Assembly: GCA_030652805.1 (NCBI GenBank)
Contig: JAUSPT010000088.1
Coordinates: forward strand, 1-12,022
DNA length: 12,022 bases
Source: a bacterium
GTDB taxonomy: Bacteria > JAHJDO01
Direction: 5' to 3'
The notes under the pieces are model-generated. The model worked only from the letters and a program-made list of their open reading frames with translations, was not told where the DNA came from and made no database searches. How positions within the stretch are numbered: position 1 is the first letter of the stretch; each line of letters opens with the position of its first letter. Positions 1-11,910 of the stretch are shown piece after piece. The position numbers and the translations under genes were made by a program.

Positions 1-1228
1 CGATAACTTCTTCAGTATTAAATATCGAGGGCTGCCCCCAGCCTTTTCTAATTATCTCGCAAGCTCTTCTTAAAAACTTATCCGGGCTTTTCTTGCTCAA
101 TAGAAAATTGCTACTGGGTTGCAATAATATCATTTCATCGATTACATCGAGTATCAGATAGGTTAAGTCATTCACTCCATCAGAACCATCAACCTTTAAT
201 CCACCATTATTAATATTGGCAAAATCGGTATAGGTCCCACTTTCTGCTAAAGTTACTCCTACTTTGGGCGGTGCCGGTTGGTTGTTAAACTTTATCCAAA
301 AATACTCTAAAAGTTCCTTTGCTTTCTCCTGGTTCAGCGTCCCCTCTTCCAGCTCCTTTTTATAAAAGGGGTATAGATGCTGGTCTAATCTGCCGGGGTT
401 AAAGGAGTCCCAAGTATTAAGTTCGGTGATAACTCCTAAGTGAACGAACCAGTACATCTGGAGGGCTTCCCAAAAATTTCGGGGAGGATGGACGGGGATA
501 TGCGAACAAACTTCGGTAATTTTGAAAAGTTCCTTTTTTCTTTGAGGATTTTTCTCGGCTTTAGCCATCTCTAAGGCTTTTTCGGCATAGCGCTCGGCAA
601 ATCTGATTATCGCTTTAGCACAGATAAGCATTGCTTTTAACTCTTCCTGTTTATCATAAGCTTCGGGGTCATTTAAATAATCAAGATTCTGCATACTTTT
701 CTCTATATCCCGGATAAAATCAGAAAAACCTTTATAATATATCTTGTCATCTGCCACCGTATGTCCGGGAGCTCTCTGCTCCATGAATTCGGTAAATATT
801 CCGGCTGTGTAACAGTCCTTCCACTCCAGAGTCATCTCTTTAAATATCCGACTGCGCATTGACCTGTTTTCCCAATAAGGAATAATTTTCTCTTTTTGAA
901 TTTCCTTTATTTTCTGATTTACTGTAAAAAAAATCTTCTTTCGATTATTAATCAGTTCGAGGTCTTCCAGACTGTGACAACATAATTCAGGAAAGGTGGG
1001 AGTCGCCCGGGGGTGTTCCCCTCTTTCTCCTACAATAAGTTCTCCTTCACCAATACATATACTTTTATTTTCCAGAACATATCCAAAAACTAAGGCACGA
1101 AGAACAGGAGCTGAAACTGTTCCGTTGTACTTCTTATAGGCTTCAGTCACTAAATTTGCCCGCTCAATAGAAATATAAGGTTGTGTATCTAAACTTTCCT
1201 GTCTTAATTTTTTTACTCTTTCATTCAT
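1..1228 (-). CDS. hypD: Glycyl radical enzyme, trans-4-hydroxy-L-proline dehydratase (HypD)-like, 3' part cut by window edge
   Basis: I translated this frame directly: ATG at 1228, beginning MNERVKKLRQESLDTQPYIS, open to the window edge for 409 residues. Blocks EFMEQRAPGHTV, ELNTWDSFNPGRLDQHLYPF, KFNNQPAPPKVG, TDFANINNGG and RKGWGQPSIFNTE closely match what I remember of the Clostridioides difficile hydroxyproline dehydratase (about 790 residues). This is the glycyl radical HypD, not the hydrogenase maturation protein. The family dehydrates trans-4-hydroxyproline to pyrroline-5-carboxylate in the cytoplasm under anoxia. The catalytic Cys and the radical-bearing Gly near the C-terminus lie outside the window, so activity cannot be judged. 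The SD TAAGAGG (1238-1244) lies in a duplicated tail of the activase gene. radC ends 30 bp upstream, so hypD may now be read with the restriction operon. No proC is visible, so the substrate is inferred from similarity only; other PFL-like dehydratases remain possible. Confidence 0.78.
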   Translation of the reverse strand, partial: MNERVKKLRQESLDTQPYISIERANLVTEAYKKYNGTVSAPVLRALVFGYVLENKSICIGEGELIVGERGEHPRATPTFPELCCHSLEDLELINNRKKIFFTVNQKIKEIQKEKIIPYWENRSMRSRIFKEMTLEWKDCYTAGIFTEFMEQRAPGHTVADDKIYYKGFSDFIRDIEKSMQNLDYLNDPEAYDKQEELKAMLICAKAIIRFAERYAEKALEMAKAEKNPQRKKELFKITEVCSHIPVHPPRNFWEALQMYWFVHLGVITELNTWDSFNPGRLDQHLYPFYKKELEEGTLNQEKAKELLEYFWIKFNNQPAPPKVGVTLAESGTYTDFANINNGGLKVDGSDGVNDLTYLILDVIDEMILLQPSSNFLLSKKSPDKFLRRACEIIRKGWGQPSIFNTEEVI

Positions 1229-1232
1229 ATAG

Positions 1233-1284
1233 ATTAACCTCTTAATTTTACATTCAGATTAAACTTCCTTAAAATCATTGCAGA
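1233..1284 (-). repeat. Orphan copy of the activase gene 3' end (left direct repeat)
   Basis: This segment matches 9004-9052, the last codons of the complete activase gene. The first 44 bases (1233-1276 against 9004-9047) agree at 42 positions. A 3-bp insertion (1277-1279) follows, then GCAGA is shared again. Read in the activase frame it gives SAMILRKFNLNVKLRG-stop, against SAILRKFNLKVKLRG-stop in the intact gene. The copy carries the SD of hypD and also the stop codon now used by radC. It marks the left end of the inserted restriction-modification island. Confidence 0.9.
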
Positions 1285-1963
1285 CCCCATTCTCTTTAAA
1301 ACTAAAATAACCATTCCCACCGATTATAATATGGTCTAATAAAACAATATCTACAGTTTTGAGGGCGGCTTTTATAGCCTTTGTTATACTGCAATCATCC
1401 TCTGATGGTTTTAAGGATTCTCCGGGATGATTGTGTGAAATAATAACGCCTGTCGCATGATTGTGTAATGCCCGTTCAACAATTTTTCTGGGATATACTA
1501 CTGATTTATTAACCGTTCCTTTTTGTATAGTCTCAACTGCCAGCAGACGATTTCTGCTATTTAAGAACATGACTTTAAATTCTTCGTCAGCTGATCCTTT
1601 TAAAGAAGCTTTCAGATAATCATAGACAACATCTGGTGAAGAAACTAAATCTTTTTTATAGAGCCCCTTCTCAAGGTAAATTACTGAAATGTCTTTTAAA
1701 AAATTGAGAAACAAGGCACCATGTTCGGAAATACCACAAACTTTTTTCAGCTCTTTCCTGTCAGCATCCAATACACCATTGAGTGTTTTGAATTCAGATA
1801 ACAACTGCTTTGCAATAGGCTTAGTGTCTTTTCTGAGAATGGTAAAGGATAAGGCAAATTCCAGCACCTCGTAATCAAGCCATCCTTTTATCCCACCGCT
1901 TTTGTACTTTGCCTTTATTCTCTTGCGATGTCCAAGATAATCTGGTTTTAAAGCTTTACTCAC
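1259..1963 (-). CDS. radC: RadC-family JAB/MPN-domain protein
   Basis: A 234-residue RadC-type protein. The N-terminal part (about 10-90) has helix-hairpin-helix character, including KKVCGISE. The C-terminal JAB/MPN domain has the metal-binding signature H177-x-H179-x10-D190 (HNHPGESLKPSEDD), with a plausible upstream glutamate in DEEF near 126-129. Despite its historic name, RadC has no settled enzymatic role; it is common in defence islands and mobile elements. The start is GTG at 1963, embedded in GTGA with the stop of the metallopeptidase gene, so translation is probably coupled. The C-terminus is odd. RadC proteins normally end shortly after a SFKExG motif, whereas here SFKENG is followed by VCNDFKEV, encoded by the duplicated activase tail. 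The gene apparently lost its own last codons and stop at the island junction. The catalytic core is intact. Confidence 0.9.
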   Translation of the reverse strand: MSKALKPDYLGHRKRIKAKYKSGGIKGWLDYEVLEFALSFTILRKDTKPIAKQLLSEFKTLNGVLDADRKELKKVCGISEHGALFLNFLKDISVIYLEKGLYKKDLVSSPDVVYDYLKASLKGSADEEFKVMFLNSRNRLLAVETIQKGTVNKSVVYPRKIVERALHNHATGVIISHNHPGESLKPSEDDCSITKAIKAALKTVDIVLLDHIIIGGNGYFSFKENGVCNDFKEV

Positions 1964-2301
1964 CTATCTACCTTCAGCCTTTCACTGTATTTTTCCCAAT
2001 CCGGCAAGAAAGCAAACATCAGACTTTTGAATAATTTGCCATGATTAGGGATTTTCATATGCAGCAGTTCATGAACAATTACGTAATCACAAAGTTCTCT
2101 CTCCATTTTAAAAAGTTTAGTGTTAAATGTTAATCTTCCATTTTGCGATAATGATGCCCACTTGTTTTTCATAAAACGCAAATGTATATCTTTCGGCTCA
2201 ACATCCAGTTTCTCTGCCCATTTAAAAATGTTTGATTTAAACTTCTCTGACTCATTTGATTGGTTCAGACATTCTCTATTTTTACTTAGAAGCATTGGCA
2301 T
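1960..2301 (-). CDS. Short YgjP-like (DUF45/M48-type) zinc metallopeptidase
   Basis: A 113-residue protein with the zincin motif HELLH (77-81) and a likely third zinc ligand in PNHGKLF (H87). The preceding stretch KWASLSQNGRLTFN matches the usual YgjP pattern of W-(G/A)-S followed by a strand. Full-length YgjP proteins are about twice as long; this one keeps only the C-terminal catalytic half. Short relatives of this kind are often found next to hsdR genes. The ATG at 2301 follows the hsdR stop without a spacer, and its own stop overlaps the radC start by 4 bp. A second in-frame ATG at 2295 is possible. It is probably a cytoplasmic protease acting with the restriction system. The substrate is unknown, and the link to restriction is inferred from gene order. 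Confidence 0.82.
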   Translation of the reverse strand: MPMLLSKNRECLNQSNESEKFKSNIFKWAEKLDVEPKDIHLRFMKNKWASLSQNGRLTFNTKLFKMERELCDYVIVHELLHMKIPNHGKLFKSLMFAFLPDWEKYSERLKVDR

Positions 2302-5190
2302 TTATCTTCTCTCCAGTTTCAGAATCTTCTCAACAAGTTCAACAGCCTTTGTTTTATTTTCTTCTTTCAGTAGTATCTTATACAACTGTGTGGTTAGCTC
2401 TCTCTTCTCCTCACTGTTTAATCTCCAGTTGGGATAATCTTCAAATATGCCATTAATCTTTACTGCCAGTGTATCTGGCTTTGAAATTCCGCTCTTCTTA
2501 AATAACCAGAAAATCGTAAAAGTATTAACATCAAAATTCTTTTCAGTCTGCTCCTTGTGTGCCTGATTAATCTCTCTGATAATTTCTTCTAATCTTTTTA
2601 AAGCTTCAAGAGTCATAATGCGTCTGTCATCATACAGCTCAATAACAGTCTGTGCCTTTTCACCTATGGAGATCAAATATGGCTGGGTATCCCGATTATC
2701 ATCAATAAACTTAATAATGCTTTTTCTTAAATTAATTATCTTAACATTATTAGACTTATCGCTTTTCTTTAATACCTCAAGAGTATCTTCTTTTATCTCA
2801 TAAATCGGAAGCATGGAGGAAATGTCTGTTGTATAAACATGCTTTTTAACCAGGTCAGAGGTCTTCCGCATCAACTCCTTATCCAGAAGAATCCTTTTGG
2901 CAAAGGCATTTCTAATAATGCTGTAAAGATAAGAAATTCTCCAGTAATCATTTATATAATCCCTTAAGAATTTATCTGGTGAGATAATCTCATAAAGCAT
3001 TTCAAGCTGCTTAAAGAACTTGTAAAAATCTTCTCTCTTGTCTTTATCACTAAAAATTTCAATTGCTCTTTCAACCGTTTTATCATCAAATCTACGTCCT
3101 ATCAATTCAAGATATGGCCTGGCTTTACCTTTCATCAGGTTTTCAAAGGTTGATTTCAATATATCTATATTTCTGATAACACTTGCCACAACATCTGAAT
3201 CAAAAGCCAGTGCCTTTTCGAGTCTTTCAAATATACCAACAAAATCAAGAACAAATCCTGCAGGTTTCTTTAAACCATCTTCATCCTCGTAAGGCCTGTT
3301 AACTCTGGCTATGGCTTGCAAAAGAGTATGATCCTTCATGGGCTTGTCTAGATACATACAATAAAGAATGGGGGCATCATATCCTGTTAATAACTTATCA
3401 GTAACTATCAATATCTTTGGCATCTTTGTTTTGTTTGGGAAAATCTTGCCTTTCAATTCCCGCTCCTTATACTCGCTTAAATAGTGCTCTTTTAAGAATG
3501 CCCTGTCATTTTGAGCCTGACTATAAACAACTATGGAATATTCAGAAGGAAGATATTTATCCAATGCTTTTTTATACAAGGCACACGCTTCTCTGTCTAC
3601 CGCAACCAGAAATGCCTTATAGCCCATAGGTTCAACATTTTCCTTATAGTGTTTAGCTACAAACTCAGCAACTTTCTTAACACGGTCTTCGGATTTTAGG
3701 AAATTCTTCAAACTTACTGCCTTATCTAATAATTTGTTTAATTCCTCTACATCACTAACACCTTCTTTTTCCATCAATGCAAAAAATTCCTTCTCAAGCA
3801 TTTCTTTAGGTACTCTTATCTCGCTTGGAGCAAGTGTGTAATGCAAAGGGAGAGTAGTACCATCTTCAATTGATTCTGCAATGGAATACTTATCCAGATA
3901 TCCTTTTTCATCCTCTTTGCCAAATATCTTGAACGTGCCTTTGCCATAAAGAATCTTATCAATGGGCGTACCGGTAAAGCCAAAATATGTTGCATCGGGA
4001 AGTGCAGCTATAAGATAATTGCCCAGGTCGCCGGTAGTAGTTCTGTGCGCTTCATCTATCAGCACAAAAATATTATCTCTTTTGTTGATATCCTTTGGCA
4101 TGCCTTCAAATTTGTGAATCATTGAAACTATAAGCCCGCGGTAGTCTGAAGAGAGAAGTTCTCGCAATTCCTTTTTGGAGTCTGCTATTTTCATTCCTTT
4201 TCCTTCTTTAAAACCGTAGGCATCAAGATTTCTGAAGAGTTGACTTTCCAGCTCATTTCTGTCAACAAGCATAATAACTGTCGGCTTTTCAAATTCTGGC
4301 TGCTGCAATATTTTTTCTGCTGCTACAATCATGGTGAAGGTTTTACCTGCACCTTGTGCATGCCATATAAGTCCTGTCTTCTTTTCCTCCTCCAATGCCC
4401 TATTAACTATCTTTTCCACTGCTCTTGTCTGGTGCTGACGCATAATTATTTTGGATAATACGTCATTTTTCCGGAAGAAGATAATATAATCCTTTATAAG
4501 TTGTAATACACGACCCTTATCGAAGAAAGTCTTGACCTTCTTCTCAAAATTTCCTTTTTCCACATCTTTCCAGTTAAAAAGTCCTTTTCTGTCAAGATTC
4601 CAGGTTACTCCATAATAAAAATCAAGCAGGTGGGTAACATCAAATATCTGATTTGAGGCCATCATCTCGGGTGTTTCAGAATGGTAGCGTCTTATCTGGG
4701 CAATTCCTTCTTCAATTCCTTCCCGCTTGTTGGCATTTTTTGTCTCTGCAATTATTACAGGAATACCATTTATCAGGAATATAACATCTCCTCTGTTGGT
4801 AAATTTGCCGTTGGTGTATTGCCATTCATCTGTTACGTGAAACTGGTTATTTTCAATGTTATCATTATTAAAGTCAATAAATCTTATATTTAGCTCCCGT
4901 TTATCCCTCTCATAGTAAACAGATTTCTCACCTTTAAGATATTGCAGGATTTCCTGATTGCCTTCTATTGAACTCTTTACATTTCCCATCCGTTTTATGA
5001 TTTCATTCGCTTTTTCGCTATTGATTATGCCCTTATTCAGATTGATTAACTGTTCTTTAAGGATATTGTAAAAAAATAATCCTGCCTCACCTTGTCTTAA
5101 GGCTACAGCTTCATCTCTGGTTAAATAAGTCCATCCGATTTGCCTGGCATATTTAATCAACGGTTCCTGGACTATTTTTCGTTCAGACAT
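2302..5190 (-). CDS. hsdR: Type I restriction enzyme, R (endonuclease/translocase) subunit
   Basis: A complete 962-residue HsdR. The N-terminal PD-(D/E)xK nuclease is visible as D135 in RGDVIF followed by E149-T-K151. The SF2 motor follows: RQHQTRAVEK (251-260), Walker A HAQGAGKT (277-284), DEAH (379-382) and GFTGTPI (404-410). Further on come the motif V region TDKLLTGYDAP and motif VI QAIARVNRP. The C-terminal helical region should dock to the methylase core. In the HsdR2M2S complex it translocates DNA using ATP and cuts DNA that lacks the host methylation. The ATG at 5190 lies one base after the hsdS stop, with GAGG just upstream. All key motifs are present, so the gene appears functional. 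Confidence 0.96.
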   Translation of the reverse strand: MSERKIVQEPLIKYARQIGWTYLTRDEAVALRQGEAGLFFYNILKEQLINLNKGIINSEKANEIIKRMGNVKSSIEGNQEILQYLKGEKSVYYERDKRELNIRFIDFNNDNIENNQFHVTDEWQYTNGKFTNRGDVIFLINGIPVIIAETKNANKREGIEEGIAQIRRYHSETPEMMASNQIFDVTHLLDFYYGVTWNLDRKGLFNWKDVEKGNFEKKVKTFFDKGRVLQLIKDYIIFFRKNDVLSKIIMRQHQTRAVEKIVNRALEEEKKTGLIWHAQGAGKTFTMIVAAEKILQQPEFEKPTVIMLVDRNELESQLFRNLDAYGFKEGKGMKIADSKKELRELLSSDYRGLIVSMIHKFEGMPKDINKRDNIFVLIDEAHRTTTGDLGNYLIAALPDATYFGFTGTPIDKILYGKGTFKIFGKEDEKGYLDKYSIAESIEDGTTLPLHYTLAPSEIRVPKEMLEKEFFALMEKEGVSDVEELNKLLDKAVSLKNFLKSEDRVKKVAEFVAKHYKENVEPMGYKAFLVAVDREACALYKKALDKYLPSEYSIVVYSQAQNDRAFLKEHYLSEYKERELKGKIFPNKTKMPKILIVTDKLLTGYDAPILYCMYLDKPMKDHTLLQAIARVNRPYEDEDGLKKPAGFVLDFVGIFERLEKALAFDSDVVASVIRNIDILKSTFENLMKGKARPYLELIGRRFDDKTVERAIEIFSDKDKREDFYKFFKQLEMLYEIISPDKFLRDYINDYWRISYLYSIIRNAFAKRILLDKELMRKTSDLVKKHVYTTDISSMLPIYEIKEDTLEVLKKSDKSNNVKIINLRKSIIKFIDDNRDTQPYLISIGEKAQTVIELYDDRRIMTLEALKRLEEIIREINQAHKEQTEKNFDVNTFTIFWLFKKSGISKPDTLAVKINGIFEDYPNWRLNSEEKRELTTQLYKILLKEENKTKAVELVEKILKLERR

Positions 5191-5191
5191 T

Positions 5192-6388
5192 TTAATTAAC
5201 CTCTACATCTAAATCTCTCACTCTGATTTTCACTCTGATTTTTCCAGTCATTAACTGGTTAAGCATGGTTCTGAATAAAGCTTGAAAGGTTTGTTTTTTG
5301 GATTCGGCTTGGGAAAGTTTTTTATCTATTTTATCTATTGCCTTTATTATATCCAATTGCTCGCTTATATTAGGGAAAGGAAATCGATAGTTTTCCAAAT
5401 CCTGACGTTGTAAGCTTGGTATTGTTGTTTTTGCATGCTCGCCTGAGAGTTGATTTATTGACATATAATAATAAAGGAATTTGGGGGTAACCATTTCTGA
5501 TTTCCATTCAAGATAAAAAGTAGTATCGGATGGCCAGCAAGGTTCTAAAAATAAATGAACAGCTCCGGCATTACCCTTTCTTCCTACAATTAATGTAGGG
5601 AAATTAATCAAAGGTTTTTCACACCATGCGTAAATTCTGCTAGAGCCGACCACTGGAATTTGACCTATTATTTTTGGCTTTTGTTTCCCATACTTTATTT
5701 TTGCAAATTCATTTATTTTTCTTACATCCCAACTCTTCGGCATCAAACCAATATCGGTTTCTTTTTGTTCTTCGCCATGCAAGCCTTCAGTGAAAAGTTT
5801 ATTCATAAGGGATTTCTTTAGCTCTCTTGTTGTTTCAATTATTCTATCCTGTTGTTCAATAGCCTGCTGGATTTTTGACAGGACAAAAGCAATTTTCTGT
5901 TGTTCTTGTATTGAGAAAAAAGGAATTTTTATGTGCAGTATTGCCTTGCTTGAATGCTTAATTGTTACTCCTGTTGTATATTTTTCAATAGTTCTTTGAA
6001 CATAGATTGTTTGCAATACATAATAAACGTAGTCTGAAAATAAATCCTTGTTTATAATTACTACTTTACGTATTCCTGATGAATATGCACCCTCTAAGCC
6101 TTGCTTAACTATCCCCGGGCTACCATCAAAAGTAATTAAAATATCTTTCTTTTTGCATAGTTTTAATTTTTTTGAAGTTGTATAAGTCTTATCATCTCGG
6201 CTACCTGAGATATCAACTACTCTTAAAAATCTTACCCCTTTCTTATCTTTATTATAATTTTCACTTCCTGGCTCAGTGCCTCTTTCAAATTGAATATATT
6301 TATCAACATTAACAACTTCCCAATCTTCAGGGATCAGTCCGATTTCTGTTTCTTTGAAACCGTTTTCTATTACTGCTTTGGTTTTCAT
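5192..6388 (-). CDS. hsdS: Type I restriction-modification specificity (S) subunit
   Basis: A complete 398-residue HsdS with the usual two-fold design. Half-repeats open with KETEIGLIPEDW (12-23) and KETDIGLMPKSW (209-220), each starting a target recognition domain (about 20-155 and 217-335). Conserved coiled-coil segments follow each one: QEQQKIAFVLSKIQQAIEQQ (161-180, continuing to LMNKLFTEGLHG) and SEQLDIIKAIDKIDKKLSQA (342-361). The two domains each read one half of a split DNA target, which cannot be predicted here. The start ATG overlaps the hsdM stop as ATGA, so translation is coupled. The C-terminus holds KIRVKIRV from a perfect 12-bp tandem duplication; the family usually ends near LMTGKIRV. 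Confidence 0.95.
   Translation of the reverse strand: MKTKAVIENGFKETEIGLIPEDWEVVNVDKYIQFERGTEPGSENYNKDKKGVRFLRVVDISGSRDDKTYTTSKKLKLCKKKDILITFDGSPGIVKQGLEGAYSSGIRKVVIINKDLFSDYVYYVLQTIYVQRTIEKYTTGVTIKHSSKAILHIKIPFFSIQEQQKIAFVLSKIQQAIEQQDRIIETTRELKKSLMNKLFTEGLHGEEQKETDIGLMPKSWDVRKINEFAKIKYGKQKPKIIGQIPVVGSSRIYAWCEKPLINFPTLIVGRKGNAGAVHLFLEPCWPSDTTFYLEWKSEMVTPKFLYYYMSINQLSGEHAKTTIPSLQRQDLENYRFPFPNISEQLDIIKAIDKIDKKLSQAESKKQTFQALFRTMLNQLMTGKIRVKIRVRDLDVEVN
5219..5242 (-). repeat. Perfect 12-bp tandem duplication in the 3' end of hsdS
   Basis: The plus-strand unit CACTCTGATTTT occurs twice head to tail. On the coding strand it gives KIRV-KIRV near the HsdS C-terminus. The unit is a multiple of three, so gain or loss of a copy would keep the frame. 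It resembles a slippage product. Confidence 0.9.
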
Positions 6389-7917
6389 TCTTCCTTCAAG
6401 AATCCTCTTTGTGTAATATTTTTCATTATCTCGTTAAGTTCTCTGTCTGTCTTTTTTCTTTCCTCTTCAAGCTCTGCTAGTTCAACAAGTATCTCATCAA
6501 CATCCCGATATTCTTCTTCTTTGCCATTACCAACATATCTTGACGGGCTTAAATTATAATCGTTCTTCTCGGCTTCTTGGTTAGTGATTATTCTTGTAAA
6601 TTTGTCTATGTTCTTCCAATCATGAAACGCCTTAGCTATTTTTTCAATCTTATCATCTGGTATGAAATTCTTAGGTCGTCCTTTTTCAAACTCTAAAGAG
6701 GTATTCATCAACATAATCCTGTCTTTTCTTTCCTTTGGCTTGTTTTTGTTCAGTATTAAGATAATTCCTGGTGCAGTTGTGTTATAAAATAGATTTTCGG
6801 GCAAAAGCAAAACTGCCTCTATCCAGTCACTATCTACGAATGCCTTGCGGATTTCCTTTTCTCTGTTACTTCCTTTGTTTCCTGAACCCCTTGCAACAGA
6901 ACCGGTATCCAGAACTATTGCAGCTTTTCCGTTCTTGTTTAATGAAGCAAACATAAGCTGGATCCATCCCCAATCAGCAGAGCTTGTAGGTGGGTAACCA
7001 TTATTAAAGCGGTTGAATGTATCAGACTCATAAAACTCACTGTTATAGCCATCTTGATTCCACATAGGATTAGCCACAACTAAATCAAAGGTTTTCAATA
7101 TACTCCCCTCAAGAAATTTCGGGTTACGGAGTGTATCTCCTATTGCAATGTCGCCTTCCATATCGTGAATAATCATATTCATCTTTGCCATTGCATAGGT
7201 AACGTAATTCTGCTCCTGTCCGTAAAGTCTCAAAGGTTTTAAAATCTTCTTCTCTTTTTCCTTAAGAGCAAGTTGGGATTTAACAAGTAATCCTCCCGAA
7301 CCACACGCCGGATCATAAACCTCTTGACCTTGCTCAGGATCCAAAATATAAGCCATAATCCAACCGACTTCTTTGGGAGTGTAAAACTCTCCTGCGCTCT
7401 GCCCCTGCCCTTCTGCAAACTTGCGAAGCAGATATTCGTATGCCCTTCCAAGAATGTCAGGTTCAGCATCTTTTAAGCCAAGCCTATTCCTGCTAATAAT
7501 CTCTATCAAACTGCTTAGCTTACCATCATCTATTATTCTCTGCCCGCTTACAGTGGCATTAAAATCAACTATGTCAATTACCCCCTGTAATTTCGGATTT
7601 TCTTTTGCTATTGCACGAATAGCATCTGTCAATTTCTCTCCGATTTTGGTTGTCTGCTTTCTTATTTGTTGCCAGGCTGCCTGTTTTGGAATAAAGAATC
7701 TCACCAAATTATGGTCTTTTGAAACAATCTCTATTGCGGTTTCTCCATCCCCAAATTCTTCAGAAAGTCTTTTAATCTCATCCTCAAAAACATCAGAAAG
7801 TCTTTTCACAAAAATCAGAGGCAGGATGTAATCCTTGAACTTTGGAGCATCCACAGCTCCCCGAATACTACAGGCAGCATTCCACAACCATGTTTCAAGA
7901 GTTTTAATGTCTAACAT
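6385..7917 (-). CDS. hsdM: Type I restriction-modification DNA methyltransferase (M) subunit
   Basis: A complete 510-residue HsdM, an adenine-N6 methyltransferase using S-adenosylmethionine. The N-terminal helical HsdM_N region covers about 1-150. GQSAGEFYTP (172-181) is the usual entry to the catalytic domain. Motif I is DPACGSGG (202-209). Motif IV is NPMW (283-286), where NPP followed by an aromatic residue is most common. The C-terminal helices (about 465-500, rich in E and K) should contact HsdS. It forms the M2S methylase with HsdS and protects host DNA at the recognised site. The ATG at 7917 has AGGAG upstream at a fairly long spacing (about 12 nt). It lies 62 bp after the nucleotidyltransferase gene, the widest gap in the operon, and overlaps hsdS by 4 bp. 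Confidence 0.96.
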   Translation of the reverse strand: MLDIKTLETWLWNAACSIRGAVDAPKFKDYILPLIFVKRLSDVFEDEIKRLSEEFGDGETAIEIVSKDHNLVRFFIPKQAAWQQIRKQTTKIGEKLTDAIRAIAKENPKLQGVIDIVDFNATVSGQRIIDDGKLSSLIEIISRNRLGLKDAEPDILGRAYEYLLRKFAEGQGQSAGEFYTPKEVGWIMAYILDPEQGQEVYDPACGSGGLLVKSQLALKEKEKKILKPLRLYGQEQNYVTYAMAKMNMIIHDMEGDIAIGDTLRNPKFLEGSILKTFDLVVANPMWNQDGYNSEFYESDTFNRFNNGYPPTSSADWGWIQLMFASLNKNGKAAIVLDTGSVARGSGNKGSNREKEIRKAFVDSDWIEAVLLLPENLFYNTTAPGIILILNKNKPKERKDRIMLMNTSLEFEKGRPKNFIPDDKIEKIAKAFHDWKNIDKFTRIITNQEAEKNDYNLSPSRYVGNGKEEEYRDVDEILVELAELEEERKKTDRELNEIMKNITQRGFLKEE

Positions 7918-7937
7918 ATCTTAACCAATCTCCTCGA

Positions 7938-7954
7938 AATTTAATTAATAAATT
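7938..7954. repeat. AT-rich 17-bp inverted repeat between the nucleotidyltransferase gene and hsdM
   Basis: AATTTA-ATTAA-TAAATT is a perfect 6-bp inverted repeat around a 5-bp centre, in the 62-bp spacer upstream of hsdM. It could be a binding site that uncouples hsdM expression from the first two genes. Such AT palindromes also arise by chance in AT-rich DNA, and no run of T typical of a terminator follows. Confidence 0.3.
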
Positions 7955-7979
7955 CCCCCAAATCCTCCGGCTTAATCTA

Positions 7980-8558
7980 CTATTTCCACACCTTTAACTG
8001 CTCAAATTTCACTTTAAATTTCTTAAAGAATTTCTCAATCTTTTGTTTTTGCACATAAGGAATTATTACACAACCTGCAGAAAGTTTCTGGCCGCCTATC
8101 TCCTGTAATAAACCTTTATACTTGTATCCTTTTCTTGTCTGTTCGTAAAGTTGCCTGTTGAATCTTGCCTTTTCTTTCTGAAGTAAGCTGCTTATCTGAA
8201 AAGAATAGATCAGATAAGGTTTTTGTTGCAGTAATATAGCGGATGGTATGTCGGATGGCTCTCTCAAGTAGAGAATCTTTCCTTCCTGAAAGATGTTCTG
8301 TAGTAAACCCGTATCTGTTTTCTGCAATTCAGCTAAAGTTCTTATGGTTGGCTGAATATTTCTGCCTATTTCGGATTCAAGTTCTATTACTTTATCGTGT
8401 ATCTCTTTCTGGGTGTTATAATCGGTTGTAAGTATAAACAAGTCAACGTCTGACCTGGAAGTAAATTCTCCTCTGGCAAGACTGCCATAAAGGATAATAG
8501 CTTTTACATCTTCAATTTTGGAAAGCTCTTTTGCTATCTTTTTAAGTATTCTCTTCAT
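7980..8558 (-). CDS. MNT-type nucleotidyltransferase domain protein
   Basis: From the ATG at 8558 this is a 192-residue protein. The minimal nucleotidyltransferase motif is clear: G25-S26 and R29-G30 in YGSLARGEFTSRSDVDLFIL, with D37 and D39 as metal ligands. A third carboxylate is not obvious: the strand where it usually lies reads NIQPTI (67-72). The C-terminal half (about 75-192) is basic and contains RKGYKYKGLLQEIGGQKL, which I associate with related archaeal and bacterial nucleotidyltransferases but cannot name. The frame stays open to a TTG at 8594. I prefer the ATG because GGAG lies 9 nt upstream and the overlap with the preceding gene falls to 17 bp. MNT proteins paired with small HEPN-type partners form toxin-antitoxin modules in which the MNT protein adds nucleotides to its partner. 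That role is an inference from gene order here. Confidence 0.8.
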   Translation of the reverse strand: MKRILKKIAKELSKIEDVKAIILYGSLARGEFTSRSDVDLFILTTDYNTQKEIHDKVIELESEIGRNIQPTIRTLAELQKTDTGLLQNIFQEGKILYLREPSDIPSAILLQQKPYLIYSFQISSLLQKEKARFNRQLYEQTRKGYKYKGLLQEIGGQKLSAGCVIIPYVQKQKIEKFFKKFKVKFEQLKVWK

Positions 8559-8910
8559 TGATCTTCTCTCCAAATCTTTTTTCAAAAAACTCAATTATTA
8601 CTTTTAAATTATCTGTTACCGCCTTCGCTCTTTCGCCATTAATTCCGTCATAACCCAAATCTCCATAAGCAAACCATATTTTACGCATTGCCTGGTTTAT
8701 TTCAACAGGAAAATTTTCATTTGAATATTCATGTCTACTCTGGTGGTCGCCAAAATGCTCTCCCTTTCTAGCAGCATCAGCTTCTACCAACTGCTCAACA
8801 ACCTTTGTGCCCAAATCACCAACCACTGTGCTCTGCTTGTTGTGATAGGCAGTTAATGTTGCTTCATACTTCTCTTTTGCTAATTCAAAATGTTTCTGAA
8901 AATCTCCCAT
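8542..8910 (-). CDS. Small helical protein, possible HEPN-like partner of the nucleotidyltransferase
   Basis: First gene of the defence operon, 122 residues. I do not recognise the family with certainty. It is predicted to be all-helical and has an unusual His/Arg-rich centre (ARKGEHFGDHQSRHEY, 47-62), followed by aromatic-rich helices (IWFAYGDLGYDG and IIEFFEKRFGEK). The size, the helical make-up, a polar R/H cluster after the first long helix and the overlap with a MNT gene suggest a HEPN-like protein. However, the canonical R-x4-6-H motif is not clear: the nearest spacings are R48-x3-H52 and R48-x7-H56. The ATG at 8910 has AAAGG upstream (TGAAAGGATGAAAAATG) and lies about 24 nt downstream of the -10 box. 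Alternatives are an antitoxin, or the repressor that binds the promoter palindromes, although no helix-turn-helix is evident. Confidence 0.7.
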   Translation of the reverse strand: MGDFQKHFELAKEKYEATLTAYHNKQSTVVGDLGTKVVEQLVEADAARKGEHFGDHQSRHEYSNENFPVEINQAMRKIWFAYGDLGYDGINGERAKAVTDNLKVIIEFFEKRFGEKINEENT

Positions 8911-8927
8911 TTTTCATCCTTTCATTT

Positions 8928-8944
8928 TTCGTTATTGTAACGAA
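8928..8944. promoter_or_regulatory. Operator-like palindrome 1, covering the -10 box
   Basis: TTCGTTATTGTAACGAA has perfect 7-bp arms around a TTG centre. It contains the whole -10 hexamer of the operon promoter, so a bound protein would block RNA polymerase. An identical copy lies 39 bp upstream. Confidence 0.8.
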
Positions 8945-8962
8945 TTATGGCTATTTTGTCAA
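8934..8962 (-). promoter_or_regulatory. Consensus sigma-70 promoter of the restriction-modification operon
   Basis: Read on the minus strand: -35 TTGACA (8957-8962), exactly 17 bp of spacer, -10 TACAAT (8934-8939). Transcription should start near 8927, giving a leader of under 20 nt before the ATG at 8910. The match to consensus is nearly perfect, so unrepressed expression should be strong. The flanking palindromes imply tight control. Confidence 0.85.
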
Positions 8963-8966
8963 GTTT

Positions 8967-8983
8967 TTCGTTATTGTAACGAA
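8967..8983. promoter_or_regulatory. Operator-like palindrome 2, just upstream of the -35 box
   Basis: Exact second copy of TTCGTTATTGTAACGAA, beginning 5 bp beyond the -35 hexamer. The identity extends three further T residues on the low-coordinate side (8964-8983 equals 8925-8944). Two identical sites bracketing the promoter suggest cooperative binding or looping by a dimeric repressor. Confidence 0.8.
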
Positions 8984-9006
8984 GGTAGGAGTTGCCTGGG
9001 GGTATT
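8982..9006 (-). pseudogene. Remnant of hypD (about codons 71-79) fused to the activase stop
   Basis: These 25 bases match 993-1017 inside hypD at 21 positions, and all four differences are transitions (C or G in hypD, T or A here). In the hypD frame the remnant reads YPQATPTF where hypD reads HPRATPTF. It directly abuts the activase stop codon. The preceding CCTCTT (9009-9014) also aligns with 1020-1025 of hypD, so the fusion is best explained by a deletion between AAGAGG microhomologies. It is short, so chance similarity is not fully excluded; position, order and frame all agree with a remnant. Confidence 0.6.
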
Positions 9007-9052
9007 AACCTCTTAATTTTACCTTCAAATTAAACTTCCTTAAAATCGCAGA
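9004..9052 (-). repeat. Intact activase 3' end (right direct repeat)
   Basis: This is the parental location of the sequence duplicated at 1233-1284: the last 15 codons of the activase, including the SD-like TAAGAGG that originally served hypD. With the left copy it brackets the restriction-modification island as an imperfect direct repeat. Confidence 0.9.
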
Positions 9053-9907
9053 TACCTCGGATAATTTTTCTTCCGAAGGAGATTGTGTAGTTGCTAACTT
9101 ATAAGTCCTTCCCAATCTTCCGTATTTATCTATGCCAATATAGTGATAAGGGAGAAGATTGACCTGAGCAATTTTTAAGGAAGACAAAAATTCTCCCGTT
9201 TCCCTGATGTTTTGATAATCATCATTTATACCGGGGATTACCGGAAAACGAATAAAAATATTATTGTGAATTGAGGAGAGTTTCTTCAAATTTTCTAAAA
9301 TGAGCTCATTAGATACCCCGGTATATTTTTTATGCCTTTCGCTATCCATTATCTTAAGGTCGTATAAAAAAAGATCTATTTTAGGGGTTATTTTGTCTAA
9401 AATTCCCCAGGAAATATATCCGGAGGTATCGACTGCGGTATGGATCTTCTTTTCTTGGCAACAAATAAGGAGACTCTCTAAAAATTCAGATTGCCCCAAT
9501 GGCTCTCCACCGGAGAAGGTCACCCCTCCGCCGGATTCTTCATAAAATACTAAATCTTTCTCTGCCTCTTTTATAACCTCTTCAGTGGTTAGTTTTTTTC
9601 CTATCATTTCCCGGGCTAAGGCTGGGCATTTTTCTATACACTTTCCGCAAAGAATGCATTTCTCTTTATCAGTAACCGGCTTTTTATTTTTCATTTGGAT
9701 AGCACTTGAGGGGCAATTCAAAGAACATACTCCACAGCCAATGCATCTATCTTCCCAGAATACCATTTCCTGCCCGCTTAATTGGCTTTCGGGATTCTGG
9801 CACCACCAGCAATTAAGCGGACATCCTTTTAAAAAGACTGTAGTTCGAATTCCTGGTCCATCATGAATCGAATATCTTTGAATATTAAAAACTGTTCCTG
9901 TAGTCAT
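9005..9907 (-). CDS. Glycyl radical enzyme activase (radical SAM)
   Basis: A 300-residue activating enzyme of the PflA/HypE type. It uses S-adenosylmethionine and a reduced [4Fe-4S] cluster to place the glycyl radical on its partner, here most likely the HypD-like enzyme. The N-terminus NIQRYSIHDGPGIRTTVFLKGC is typical. The radical SAM motif is C29-x3-C33-x2-C36. A two-cluster ferredoxin insert follows, CIGCGVCSLNCP (55-66) and CILCGKCIEKCP (84-95), then GGGVTFSGGEP (126-136). The frame extends to a TTG at 9943. I chose the ATG at 9907 because relatives start just before TVFNIQRYS, and the longer form would be encoded by a palindromic repeat. No strong SD precedes the ATG. The transketolase stop is 14 bp upstream, so the two are probably co-transcribed. 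Its partner gene has been moved about 7.8 kb away by the inserted island. Confidence 0.93.
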   Translation of the reverse strand: MTTGTVFNIQRYSIHDGPGIRTTVFLKGCPLNCWWCQNPESQLSGQEMVFWEDRCIGCGVCSLNCPSSAIQMKNKKPVTDKEKCILCGKCIEKCPALAREMIGKKLTTEEVIKEAEKDLVFYEESGGGVTFSGGEPLGQSEFLESLLICCQEKKIHTAVDTSGYISWGILDKITPKIDLFLYDLKIMDSERHKKYTGVSNELILENLKKLSSIHNNIFIRFPVIPGINDDYQNIRETGEFLSSLKIAQVNLLPYHYIGIDKYGRLGRTYKLATTQSPSEEKLSEVSAILRKFNLKVKLRG

Positions 9908-9917
9908 AAGAACAGAT

Positions 9918-9944
9918 TTTGTCAAAGGACCGTCCCCAGACAAA
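9918..9944. repeat. 27-bp interrupted palindrome (REP-like) at the transketolase stop
   Basis: On the plus strand the layout is TTTGTC-AAA-GGAC-C-GTCC-CCA-GACAAA: two nested pairs of complementary arms (6 and 4 bp) around one base. It includes the transketolase stop codon (9922-9924) and encodes the residues LGTVL at the end of that protein. A GGGGACGGTCC core resembles short palindromes that I recall as dispersed in several anaerobe genomes. There is no T-run, so it is not a standard terminator. Confidence 0.6.
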
Positions 9945-11910
9945 GTTTGATGATTTTTTGGGCAATTTTTTCAGGAGTAAAACCAAAATAATCGGCTAAT
10001 TGCTGATCGGGTGCACTCTTACCGAAAGACTTCATAAATACTGTGTAATAAGAATCGTTTAATAATTGATACCAACCCTGGCCGGTATTAGCTTCAATTA
10101 CTACCCGAAGTGCGTCTTTAGGCCCCAGAACCTCTTCTATATATTTTTTTTCTTGTCTTAAAAATTCTTCTCTGTCCGGAATAGATACTACTCGACCGGT
10201 AATACCGTTCACTTTTAAGATAAGATTTACCTTTACGGCTATCGAAACTTCACTACCGCTGGCCATTAATACCACCTGGGGTACTTCTTTCTCTTTGTGG
10301 GATATTACATAACCGCCACAGGAGAATTCTTTTACGCCGTGGTATTTTTCCAGATGAGGTAAATTCTGCCGGGATAAAACCAGGGCAGTAGGACCTTCTG
10401 TTCTTTTCAAAACTTCCTTCCAAGCTAATTTGGTCTCTTCTTCATCGGCAGGTCTGATGACTTTTAAACCGGGGATAAGTCTTAAAGATTCCAGCTGTTC
10501 CACCGGCTGATGAGTAGGGCCATCTTCTCCCACCATTATAGAATCGTGGGTAAAGATATAGATTACCGGGAGTCCCATTAAGGCAGCCATTCTAATAGCC
10601 GGACGCATATAATCAGAAAAAACAAAGAAAGTGGAACAATATGGTCTCAATCCCTTGTGTGCTGCTATGCCATTAACAATCGCCCCCATAGCATGTTCTC
10701 TAACTCCAAACCTGAGGTTTCTACCTTTAAAACTGTTTTTTTGAACTTCTCCATAGTTATTAAGATATGTTTTGGTAGAAGGAGATAAATCCGCTGAACC
10801 TCCGATAAGATAAGGAATTTTATCAGCAAGTTCATTTAAAACTACCGATGAGGCCACTCGGGTAGCTACCGGAGATTTTATTTCCAGGCTATCTAGTTCT
10901 AAATCTTGAGGAATAATTAAATTTAACGCCTTATTCCATTGCTTTTTTAGTTCGGGGTATTTTTTGCCCCATTGGGTAAATTTATCTTCCCATTCTTCTC
11001 TTTTTTGGGTAAGCTGTCTTTTTCTGTTTTTAAAAAATTCTTTGACCTCAGAGGAGACATAAAATTTTTCATCTAAGGGTAATCCTAAATTTTTCTTTAA
11101 ACCTTCTATTTCTTCTTCACCCAGGGGTGCGCCGTGACAGCTGCAAGAATCCTGCTTGGTAGGTGCACCATACCCAATATGGGTATTTGCTATAATTAAA
11201 GTGGGTTTATCTTCGCTCTCTTTAGCTTTAATAATAGCTGCTTTAATTTCTTCAATACTGTGGCCATCAATATGATCAATTACTTTCCATTTATAAGCCC
11301 TAAATCTATCGGCTACCGACTCGGTAAAAGTAGCTTTAGTCTCTCCGGCAAGACAGATTTTGTTATTATCATAGATAGCAATTAACTTTCCCAGACCCAG
11401 GTGTCCGGCCAGTGATGCAGCTTCGGAAGTAATCCCCTCCATCATACAGCCATCACCTAAAAGGGTATAAGTATGGTGGTCAACAATCTTATAATCCTCG
11501 GCATTAAACCTGGCTGCTAACATCTTTTCTGCTAATTCCATTCCCACCGCATTGGCAAAGCCCTGTCCCAATGGTCCGGTAGTGACTTCGACCCCGGGAG
11601 TTTTTCCATATTCAGGATGACCGGGAGTTTTAGAATTAAGCTGTCTGAATTTTTTTAAATCATCGAGAGAAAGGTTATATCCCGAAAGGTGTAACAGAGA
11701 ATACAACCAGGCTGAACCATGTCCGGCAGATAGCACAAAACGGTCTCGGTCTGGCCAATCTGGAGTAGAAGAATCGTATTTTAATACATCTCCAAAGAGA
11801 ACTACACCGATTTCTGCACAACCCAAAGGTAATCCCGGGTGACCGGAATTAGCCGTCTCTATCATATCTACAGCCAACCCTCTTACTATATTAGCGATTC
11901 TATAAAACAA
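9922..11910 (-). CDS. tkt: Transketolase
   Basis: A full-length, 662-residue thiamine-diphosphate enzyme that moves two-carbon ketol units between sugar phosphates in the non-oxidative pentose phosphate pathway (cytoplasm). Seen in order: ANSGHPG with H24, SAGHGS with H64, GPLGQG (112-117), and the ThDP/metal motif beginning G152-D-G and ending near N182-N183. The pyrimidine-binding domain has FGVREHAMG with the catalytic E405, then HDSIMVGEDGPTHQP (455-469). The start is TTG at 11910, supported by a perfect AAGGAGG (11920-11926) nine bases upstream and by conservation beginning at once with IANIVRGLAVD. The last residues, LGTVL, come from a palindromic element, so the original C-terminus was probably slightly different. 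As an uncut single-chain form it differs from the split N/C transketolases found in many anaerobes. Confidence 0.96.
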   Translation of the reverse strand: MFYRIANIVRGLAVDMIETANSGHPGLPLGCAEIGVVLFGDVLKYDSSTPDWPDRDRFVLSAGHGSAWLYSLLHLSGYNLSLDDLKKFRQLNSKTPGHPEYGKTPGVEVTTGPLGQGFANAVGMELAEKMLAARFNAEDYKIVDHHTYTLLGDGCMMEGITSEAASLAGHLGLGKLIAIYDNNKICLAGETKATFTESVADRFRAYKWKVIDHIDGHSIEEIKAAIIKAKESEDKPTLIIANTHIGYGAPTKQDSCSCHGAPLGEEEIEGLKKNLGLPLDEKFYVSSEVKEFFKNRKRQLTQKREEWEDKFTQWGKKYPELKKQWNKALNLIIPQDLELDSLEIKSPVATRVASSVVLNELADKIPYLIGGSADLSPSTKTYLNNYGEVQKNSFKGRNLRFGVREHAMGAIVNGIAAHKGLRPYCSTFFVFSDYMRPAIRMAALMGLPVIYIFTHDSIMVGEDGPTHQPVEQLESLRLIPGLKVIRPADEEETKLAWKEVLKRTEGPTALVLSRQNLPHLEKYHGVKEFSCGGYVISHKEKEVPQVVLMASGSEVSIAVKVNLILKVNGITGRVVSIPDREEFLRQEKKYIEEVLGPKDALRVVIEANTGQGWYQLLNDSYYTVFMKSFGKSAPDQQLADYFGFTPEKIAQKIIKLCLGTVL

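Follow-up and report, generated by a model that had tools for sequence, protein, structure and literature searches.

The DNA analyzed here is probably part of an Atribacterota genome into which a foreign, composite defense island entered at the junction between a glycyl-radical activase gene and hypD, by an insertion that duplicated about 0.36 kb or more of the target through crossover with a carrier. This is the account we favor, with reasonable though far from complete confidence. Several observations underlie it: relatives have empty sites, a second genome (G091) has the same island at the same site, the tail of the activase gene and part of hypD are present in duplicate, the composition of the island is foreign to its surroundings, and radC runs on into the duplicated sequence.

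The window, by which we mean the whole stretch of DNA analyzed, is the complete contig C88 (12,022 bp), one of 102 in a MAG of 2.0 Mb. On the minus strand, its gene order is transketolase, activase, the island (a HEPN-like 122-aa gene, MNT, hsdM, hsdS, hsdR, ygjP, and radC), and hypD, with the following features.

2..1228, minus strand: hypD, trans-4-hydroxy-L-proline dehydratase; N-terminal 409 aa, running off the contig (NF043068, 713 bits)
1233..1284, minus strand: orphan activase tail, the right repeat copy, with the hypD ribosome-binding site and the radC 3' end inside; the G091 tail lies in the same place
1259..1963, minus strand: radC, JAB-domain RadC (PF04002, NF000642); final codons and stop from the activase tail
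1960..2301, minus strand: ygjP-like metallopeptidase gene (PF01863)
2302..5190, minus strand: hsdR, type I restriction subunit (TIGR00348, 476 bits, over cut-off)
5192..6388, minus strand: hsdS, specificity subunit (PF01420, two stretches)
6385..7917, minus strand: hsdM, methylase subunit (PF02384, PF12161)
7980..8594, minus strand: MNT nucleotidyltransferase gene (PF18765/PF01909; MntA model NF047752, 48.5 bits, cut-off 60)
8542..8910, minus strand: 122-aa HEPN-fold gene (AlphaFold model, pLDDT 83.7; match to 2hsb)
8925..8983, minus strand: predicted island promoter, TTGACA-17-TACAAT at 8962-8934, with two palindromes TTCGTTACAATAACGAA at 8928-8944 and 8967-8983
8984..9003, minus strand: left hypD remnant, hypD nt 214-234 (17/20); a longer remnant lies at the same position in G091
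9004..9052, minus strand: left repeat copy, the true activase 3' end, from the repeat alignment
9005..9943, minus strand: activase gene (NF043069, 437 bits, cut-off 425); likely start ATG at 9907, from relatives
9922..11910, minus strand: tkt, transketolase (TIGR00232, 836 bits; 89% to G059)

The direct repeat and the empty sites

The two copies of the direct repeat align without a gap over 1233-1276 and 9004-9047, with 42 of 44 positions identical and longest exact runs of about 20 nt; allowing a 3-nt indel adds TCTGC and extends the copies to about 1233-1284 and 9004-9052. A search of the 2.0-Mb assembly matched the sequence at these two positions alone, the second copy with E = 5.6e-14, and about 5e-14 such repeat pairs would be expected by chance in 12 kb. 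The intact left copy consists of the activase's final 13 codons and stop, and the orphan copy lies 5 nt ahead of the hypD start codon and contains the Shine-Dalgarno-like AAGAGG. The description in the initial annotation of a repeat of ~50 bp, intact at 9004-9052 and orphaned at 1233-1284 ahead of hypD with its ribosome-binding site, is thereby borne out. These 44 to 52 nt probably survive as a repeat because one copy is the coding end and stop of the activase and the other is the ribosome-binding site of hypD.

Empty sites were sought by searching for hypD in the named genomes and in 50 genomes from the phylum that gave the closest match. The activase-hypD junction is uninterrupted in five close relatives (G059, G060, G061, G093, and G094), where the repeated sequence occurs once at the orthologous site. 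The order transketolase-activase-hypD, which had been proposed as ancestral, is intact in G093 (L139), G061 (L140), and G060/UBA6251 (L008), and serine dehydratase-activase-hypD is found in G059/CSMAG_624 (L076) and G094 (L138). The G059 junction differs from the orphan tail of the window by a few bases and has an identical spacer, TCTAT. None of the five empty sites carries an orphan activase tail, and the outcomes named beforehand as refuting an insertion, namely, such a tail in island-less genomes or an activase and hypD that are never adjacent, were not found among the relatives.

Other rearrangements are visible around operons of this type. G059 has two activase copies with 93% DNA identity, one beside transketolase and running off its contig (L109, C81) and one beside hypD (L076, C74). 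In Atribacterota UBA6251, a paralogous activase-hypD pair has a different hsdM-hsdS-hsdR-ygjP unit immediately upstream of it (L037 2535-9013); this unit, absent in UBA6794 (L055 8994-9013), is a second, separate restriction-modification (R-M) insertion beside this operon type. We considered L037 as the donor arrangement and rejected it, since its R-M unit belongs to a different lineage and comparison with L055 reveals no comparable duplication. UBA6794 also has an orphan M24 peptidase gene tail before its activase, the upstream region having been exchanged (L055 8995-9050 versus L053 9005-9050).

A second carrier and a longer duplication

The known carriers are two only, the window and G091, and both are MAG contigs. 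In G091 (contig C86, L137), which was assembled independently, the order is M24 peptidase-activase, then MNT, hsdM, hsdS, hsdR, ygjP, and radC, followed by an activase tail and hypD. The two activase tails of G091 are identical at 44 of 44 positions. Its island proteins are 88-94% identical to those of the window, HsdS excepted (67%), and its hypD is 82.5% identical; the HEPN-like gene is missing from its island, and MNT has been kept. As the same junctions occur in G091, a chimeric contig is ruled out as their source. The two HsdS proteins (window 5192-6388, L137 4940-6205) agree almost completely over the first recognition half and differ strongly over the second, which reads as an exchange of domains and should make the specificities of these otherwise very similar systems differ.

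The left junction of G091 retains what the window has largely lost. Between the activase stop and the island promoter lies a hypD-like stretch of ~90 nt (2381-2470) that aligns with hypD nt ~214-310 and scores 45-47 against four hypD genes, compared with a control maximum of 26 (2,000 real-sequence controls per comparison). In the window, the corresponding sequence amounts to the 20 nt at 8984-9003, which had been overlooked in the initial annotation; 17 of the 20 match nt 214-234 of the window's own hypD, a score that none of 2,000 controls reached, and between 8 and 122 of 2,000 controls reach its score against other hypD genes. Weak alone, this shorter remnant is interpreted in the light of that of G091. 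Both remnants begin at the same hypD position, directly after the activase stop, and the junction is therefore shared by descent, hypD nt 1-213 having been lost from the left side before the island copies split.

The insert had been proposed to be bounded by ~50 bp of repeated target sequence. That part of the proposal is not supported: with an internal hypD fragment to the left of the island, we infer a duplicated target of at least about 0.36 kb, comprising the activase tail (about 49 nt), the spacer, and hypD to nt ~310, which was trimmed later. The length of ~0.36 kb is a reconstruction, as the middle of the left duplicate is deleted. The hypD fragment is evidence against both a 50-bp attachment site and a transposon target duplication, and both readings were set aside on account of the hypD sequence found within the left repeat. 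The G091 remnant is closer to the hypD genes of the window, G093, and G061 (46-49) than to G091's own hypD (27), so that the account needs a further step, either transfer of the block from one lineage to another or a replacement of hypD.

The right junction and expression

At its right end, the island meets the repeat within a gene, a detail that had also escaped notice: radC ends within the orphan repeat. The RadC homologue in L181 terminates in ...FNKKGLL*, and both island RadCs read ...FKENG-VCNDFKEV*, their last codons and stop being supplied by the activase tail in a different frame. As the RadCs end in the activase tail, the right end of the island cuts radC at its very end.

This arrangement may have consequences for expression. 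Cut off from the tkt-activase promoter, hypD is now probably read from the promoter-like site of the island through radC. The palindrome TTCGTTACAATAACGAA occurs in two identical copies around the -35 element, one of which overlaps the -10 of the island promoter, and the two copies form a likely, putative operator pair. No separate regulator gene was recognized in the island, and autoregulation by the HEPN-MNT pair is therefore possible.

Content of the island

A self-contained defense operon between the repeats, as originally described, is what we find: hsdM, hsdS, hsdR, the ygjP-like gene, radC, MNT, and the 122-aa HEPN-fold gene. HsdM, HsdS, and HsdR of a type I R-M system are encoded together (Pfam, NCBIfam, and PADLOC); the HsdM and HsdS Pfam models score over cut-off, and TIGR00497, at 217 bits, falls just under its cut-off of 242.75. 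No recombinase, transposase, or integrase family matched the ORFs scanned in the window, in agreement with the earlier statement that the island contains no recombinase gene. The activase belongs to the trans-4-hydroxyproline dehydratase activase family (NF043069).

The model of the 122-aa protein aligns with 2hsb over 116 residues (Z 15.6, rmsd 2.4), and its best rows are HEPN proteins. The HEPN-like and MNT genes with their palindromic promoter (window 7978-8984) are found alone in G092 contig C8 (L177 7446-8452), at 91% DNA identity, between a radical-SAM gene and miaB; the two thus seem to form a mobile cassette of their own.

PLSDB plasmids contain no similar DNA at the megablast level, and phages yielded only distant HsdM relatives, below 60% identity. 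Viral contigs contain one RadC relative (67%), in the unrelated R-M cluster L181, and no relative of the 122-aa gene.

Origin of the flanks and of the island

The chromosomal part of the contig is Atribacterota-like and the island resembles the phylum to which the bin is assigned, a division unseen in the initial annotation. The tetranucleotide profile of tkt and activase scores 0.89 with Atribacterota versus 0.60 with the bin's phylum, and that of the island scores 0.75 versus 0.87, on a measure for which 3-kb slices of the two phyla do not overlap. The window transketolase is 89% identical to that of G059, and the bin genome's own transketolase, on C56, is 50% identical to it. In the bin's phylum (n = 5 genomes), no hypD or activase outside the window passed the cut-offs used, and relatives were therefore sought in Atribacterota, where hypD genes are 85-89% identical to that of the window.

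For the island, the closest HsdM and HsdR outside G091 are those of G002, a member of the bin's phylum (85% and 81%), and the HsdR tree places the copies of the window and G091 closest to one another and that of G002 after them. The R-M unit on G002 contig C51 (L208) has the same gene order as that of the window, with hsdM 85%, hsdR 81%, and ygjP 58% identical. Its setting differs: its HsdS is different, the contig lacks HEPN-MNT and radC, and the flanks contain an N6/N4 methylase and a HATPase/Mrr-like protein, with a tyrosine recombinase gene after the unit. The simplest reading of these comparisons would be an island from the bin's phylum, or a relative thereof, in an Atribacterota chromosome. 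The contig itself is sound and was probably misbinned, drawn into the wrong bin by its island; alternatively, the G000 organism itself could have acquired an Atribacterota block. Within the same small phylum, rpoB of G000, G002, and G004 (L089, L090, and L088) lies within a single open reading frame about 2,630 aa long, suggestive of an rpoB-rpoC fusion.

Route of entry and its alternatives

The route of entry, left open in the initial annotation between site-specific integration at a gene end and homologous recombination with a carrier fragment, can now be narrowed: the hypD fragment disfavors the former, and recombination with a carrier is favored. The carrier would be a circle with the island beside a short segment comprising the activase tail and the start of hypD. 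A single crossover with the chromosome would yield a full activase and a 3'-truncated hypD, then the island, and then a 5'-truncated activase and a full hypD. The truncated left hypD would decay, losing nt 1-213 before the window and G091 copies split and more in the window thereafter. Sequence between the end of the activase reading frame and the ribosome-binding site of hypD would be free to decay, with the ends of the repeat kept by function, and recombination between the two tails would delete the island and restore the operon. This account rests on standard recombination logic; neither a circular carrier nor an intermediate with an intact ~0.36-kb duplication was seen among the sequences compared.

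The same end product could arise by local rearrangement, in which activase-hypD was first duplicated, in tandem or ectopically, the island arrived between the copies, and one hypD and one activase decayed in complementary fashion. Duplicates of this kind do occur: the activase is present twice in G059, hypD has two loci in each of G060 and G061, and in L037 another R-M unit lies beside a paralogous activase-hypD pair. We nevertheless hold this route to be rather unlikely, as it requires a longer series of events, in which a duplication and an independent insertion are joined by two deletions that end near the same short stretch. In our estimation it is improbable that a tyrosine recombinase, either supplied in trans or lost afterwards, integrated an element whose attachment site resembled the activase tail at the 3' end of that gene in a site-specific manner, leaving the ~50-bp repeat as attL and attR. 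A repeat that is the 3' end of a gene with its frame kept is usual for att sites, and the tyrosine recombinase gene after the closest related R-M unit, that of G002, makes an early site-specific step conceivable. However, both carriers have sequence from inside hypD separating the island from the left repeat, a result that insertion at an att site does not give, and no integrase is present among the ORFs scanned in the island. That the contig is an artefact of assembly or binning joining unrelated pieces might be suspected from its MAG origin and chimeric composition, but this we consider very improbable, because a different assembly (G091, C86) has the same two junctions with diverged sequence, and exact stretches in the repeat, at about 20 nt or less, are too short for most assemblers to join on.

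With insertion by carrier crossover as the preferred reading, the later history of the island can be considered. The hypD tree groups the window with G059 and G091 with G094 (support of 100 for G091-G094). The carriers are thus not sisters, and the nearest relative of each is without the island, which implies either losses, easy and clean through the repeat, or transfer between lineages by way of the activase and hypD arms. That the G091 remnant is of the window/G093/G061 type would favor transfer between lineages. Identities at 4-fold sites (70% for hsdM/hsdR and 70% for the activase) do not on their own date the island relative to the activase, and we make no claim of a more recent movement of the island. 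It could be speculated, further, that the activase tail and hypD serve as portable homology arms and that this cross-phylum island is a reversible cassette spreading among Atribacterota, cleanly removable through the 44-bp repeat and placing a glycyl-radical enzyme under a defense promoter. The distribution of the island over non-sister carriers lends this some support; we regard it as clearly unlikely all the same.

Significance and comparison with known systems

How restriction systems without a recombinase of their own enter chromosomes is a long-standing question. The two carriers described here, assembled independently, differ in how much of the duplicated target they have preserved, which makes the original event partly readable; what can still be seen as a repeat is only the part that selection retained. 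More generally, a short repeat at the flanks need not mark an attachment site, nor need its length be that of the target duplication. In addition, a defense island common to two phyla, which probably pulled its contig into the wrong bin, is a trap for anyone describing the gene content of uncultured lineages.

Placed beside known systems, the pair formed by the small gene for the HEPN-fold protein and the MNT nucleotidyltransferase gene that it overlaps downstream, found on its own at the G092 site, resembles type VII (HepT/MntA) toxin-antitoxin modules (PMC7641770, PMC11586414). It differs in that the MntA model scores below its cut-off and in that no RX4HXY motif is apparent by eye in the 122-aa protein. 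With tyrosine-recombinase islands at gene 3' ends, the island shares a repeat made of a gene's 3' end in which the reading frame is preserved; it differs in having no integrase and in the host hypD sequence inside the left repeat.

The closest parallel is the insertion of R-M genes with a long, variable target duplication, described, in the sources used here, from genome comparisons of Helicobacter pylori (Nobusato et al. 2000 and Furuta et al. 2010, both cited through PMC3031569, PMC1643837, and PMC4978471). Common to both are chromosomal R-M genes, an empty site in close relatives, flanking direct repeats derived from the target, and an interior in which no transposase or integrase is found; the long direct duplication at both ends is represented here by the 44 to 52 nt that are intact together with the remnant of hypD nt ~214-310. 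In contrast to the Helicobacter cases, the host is an Atribacterota genome, the island is composite, with HEPN-MNT and radC, and the duplication is partly erased, only its functionally needed ends being still obvious. The case belongs to this known type of insertion, to which it adds an unusually legible decay of the duplication and a probable cross-phylum source.
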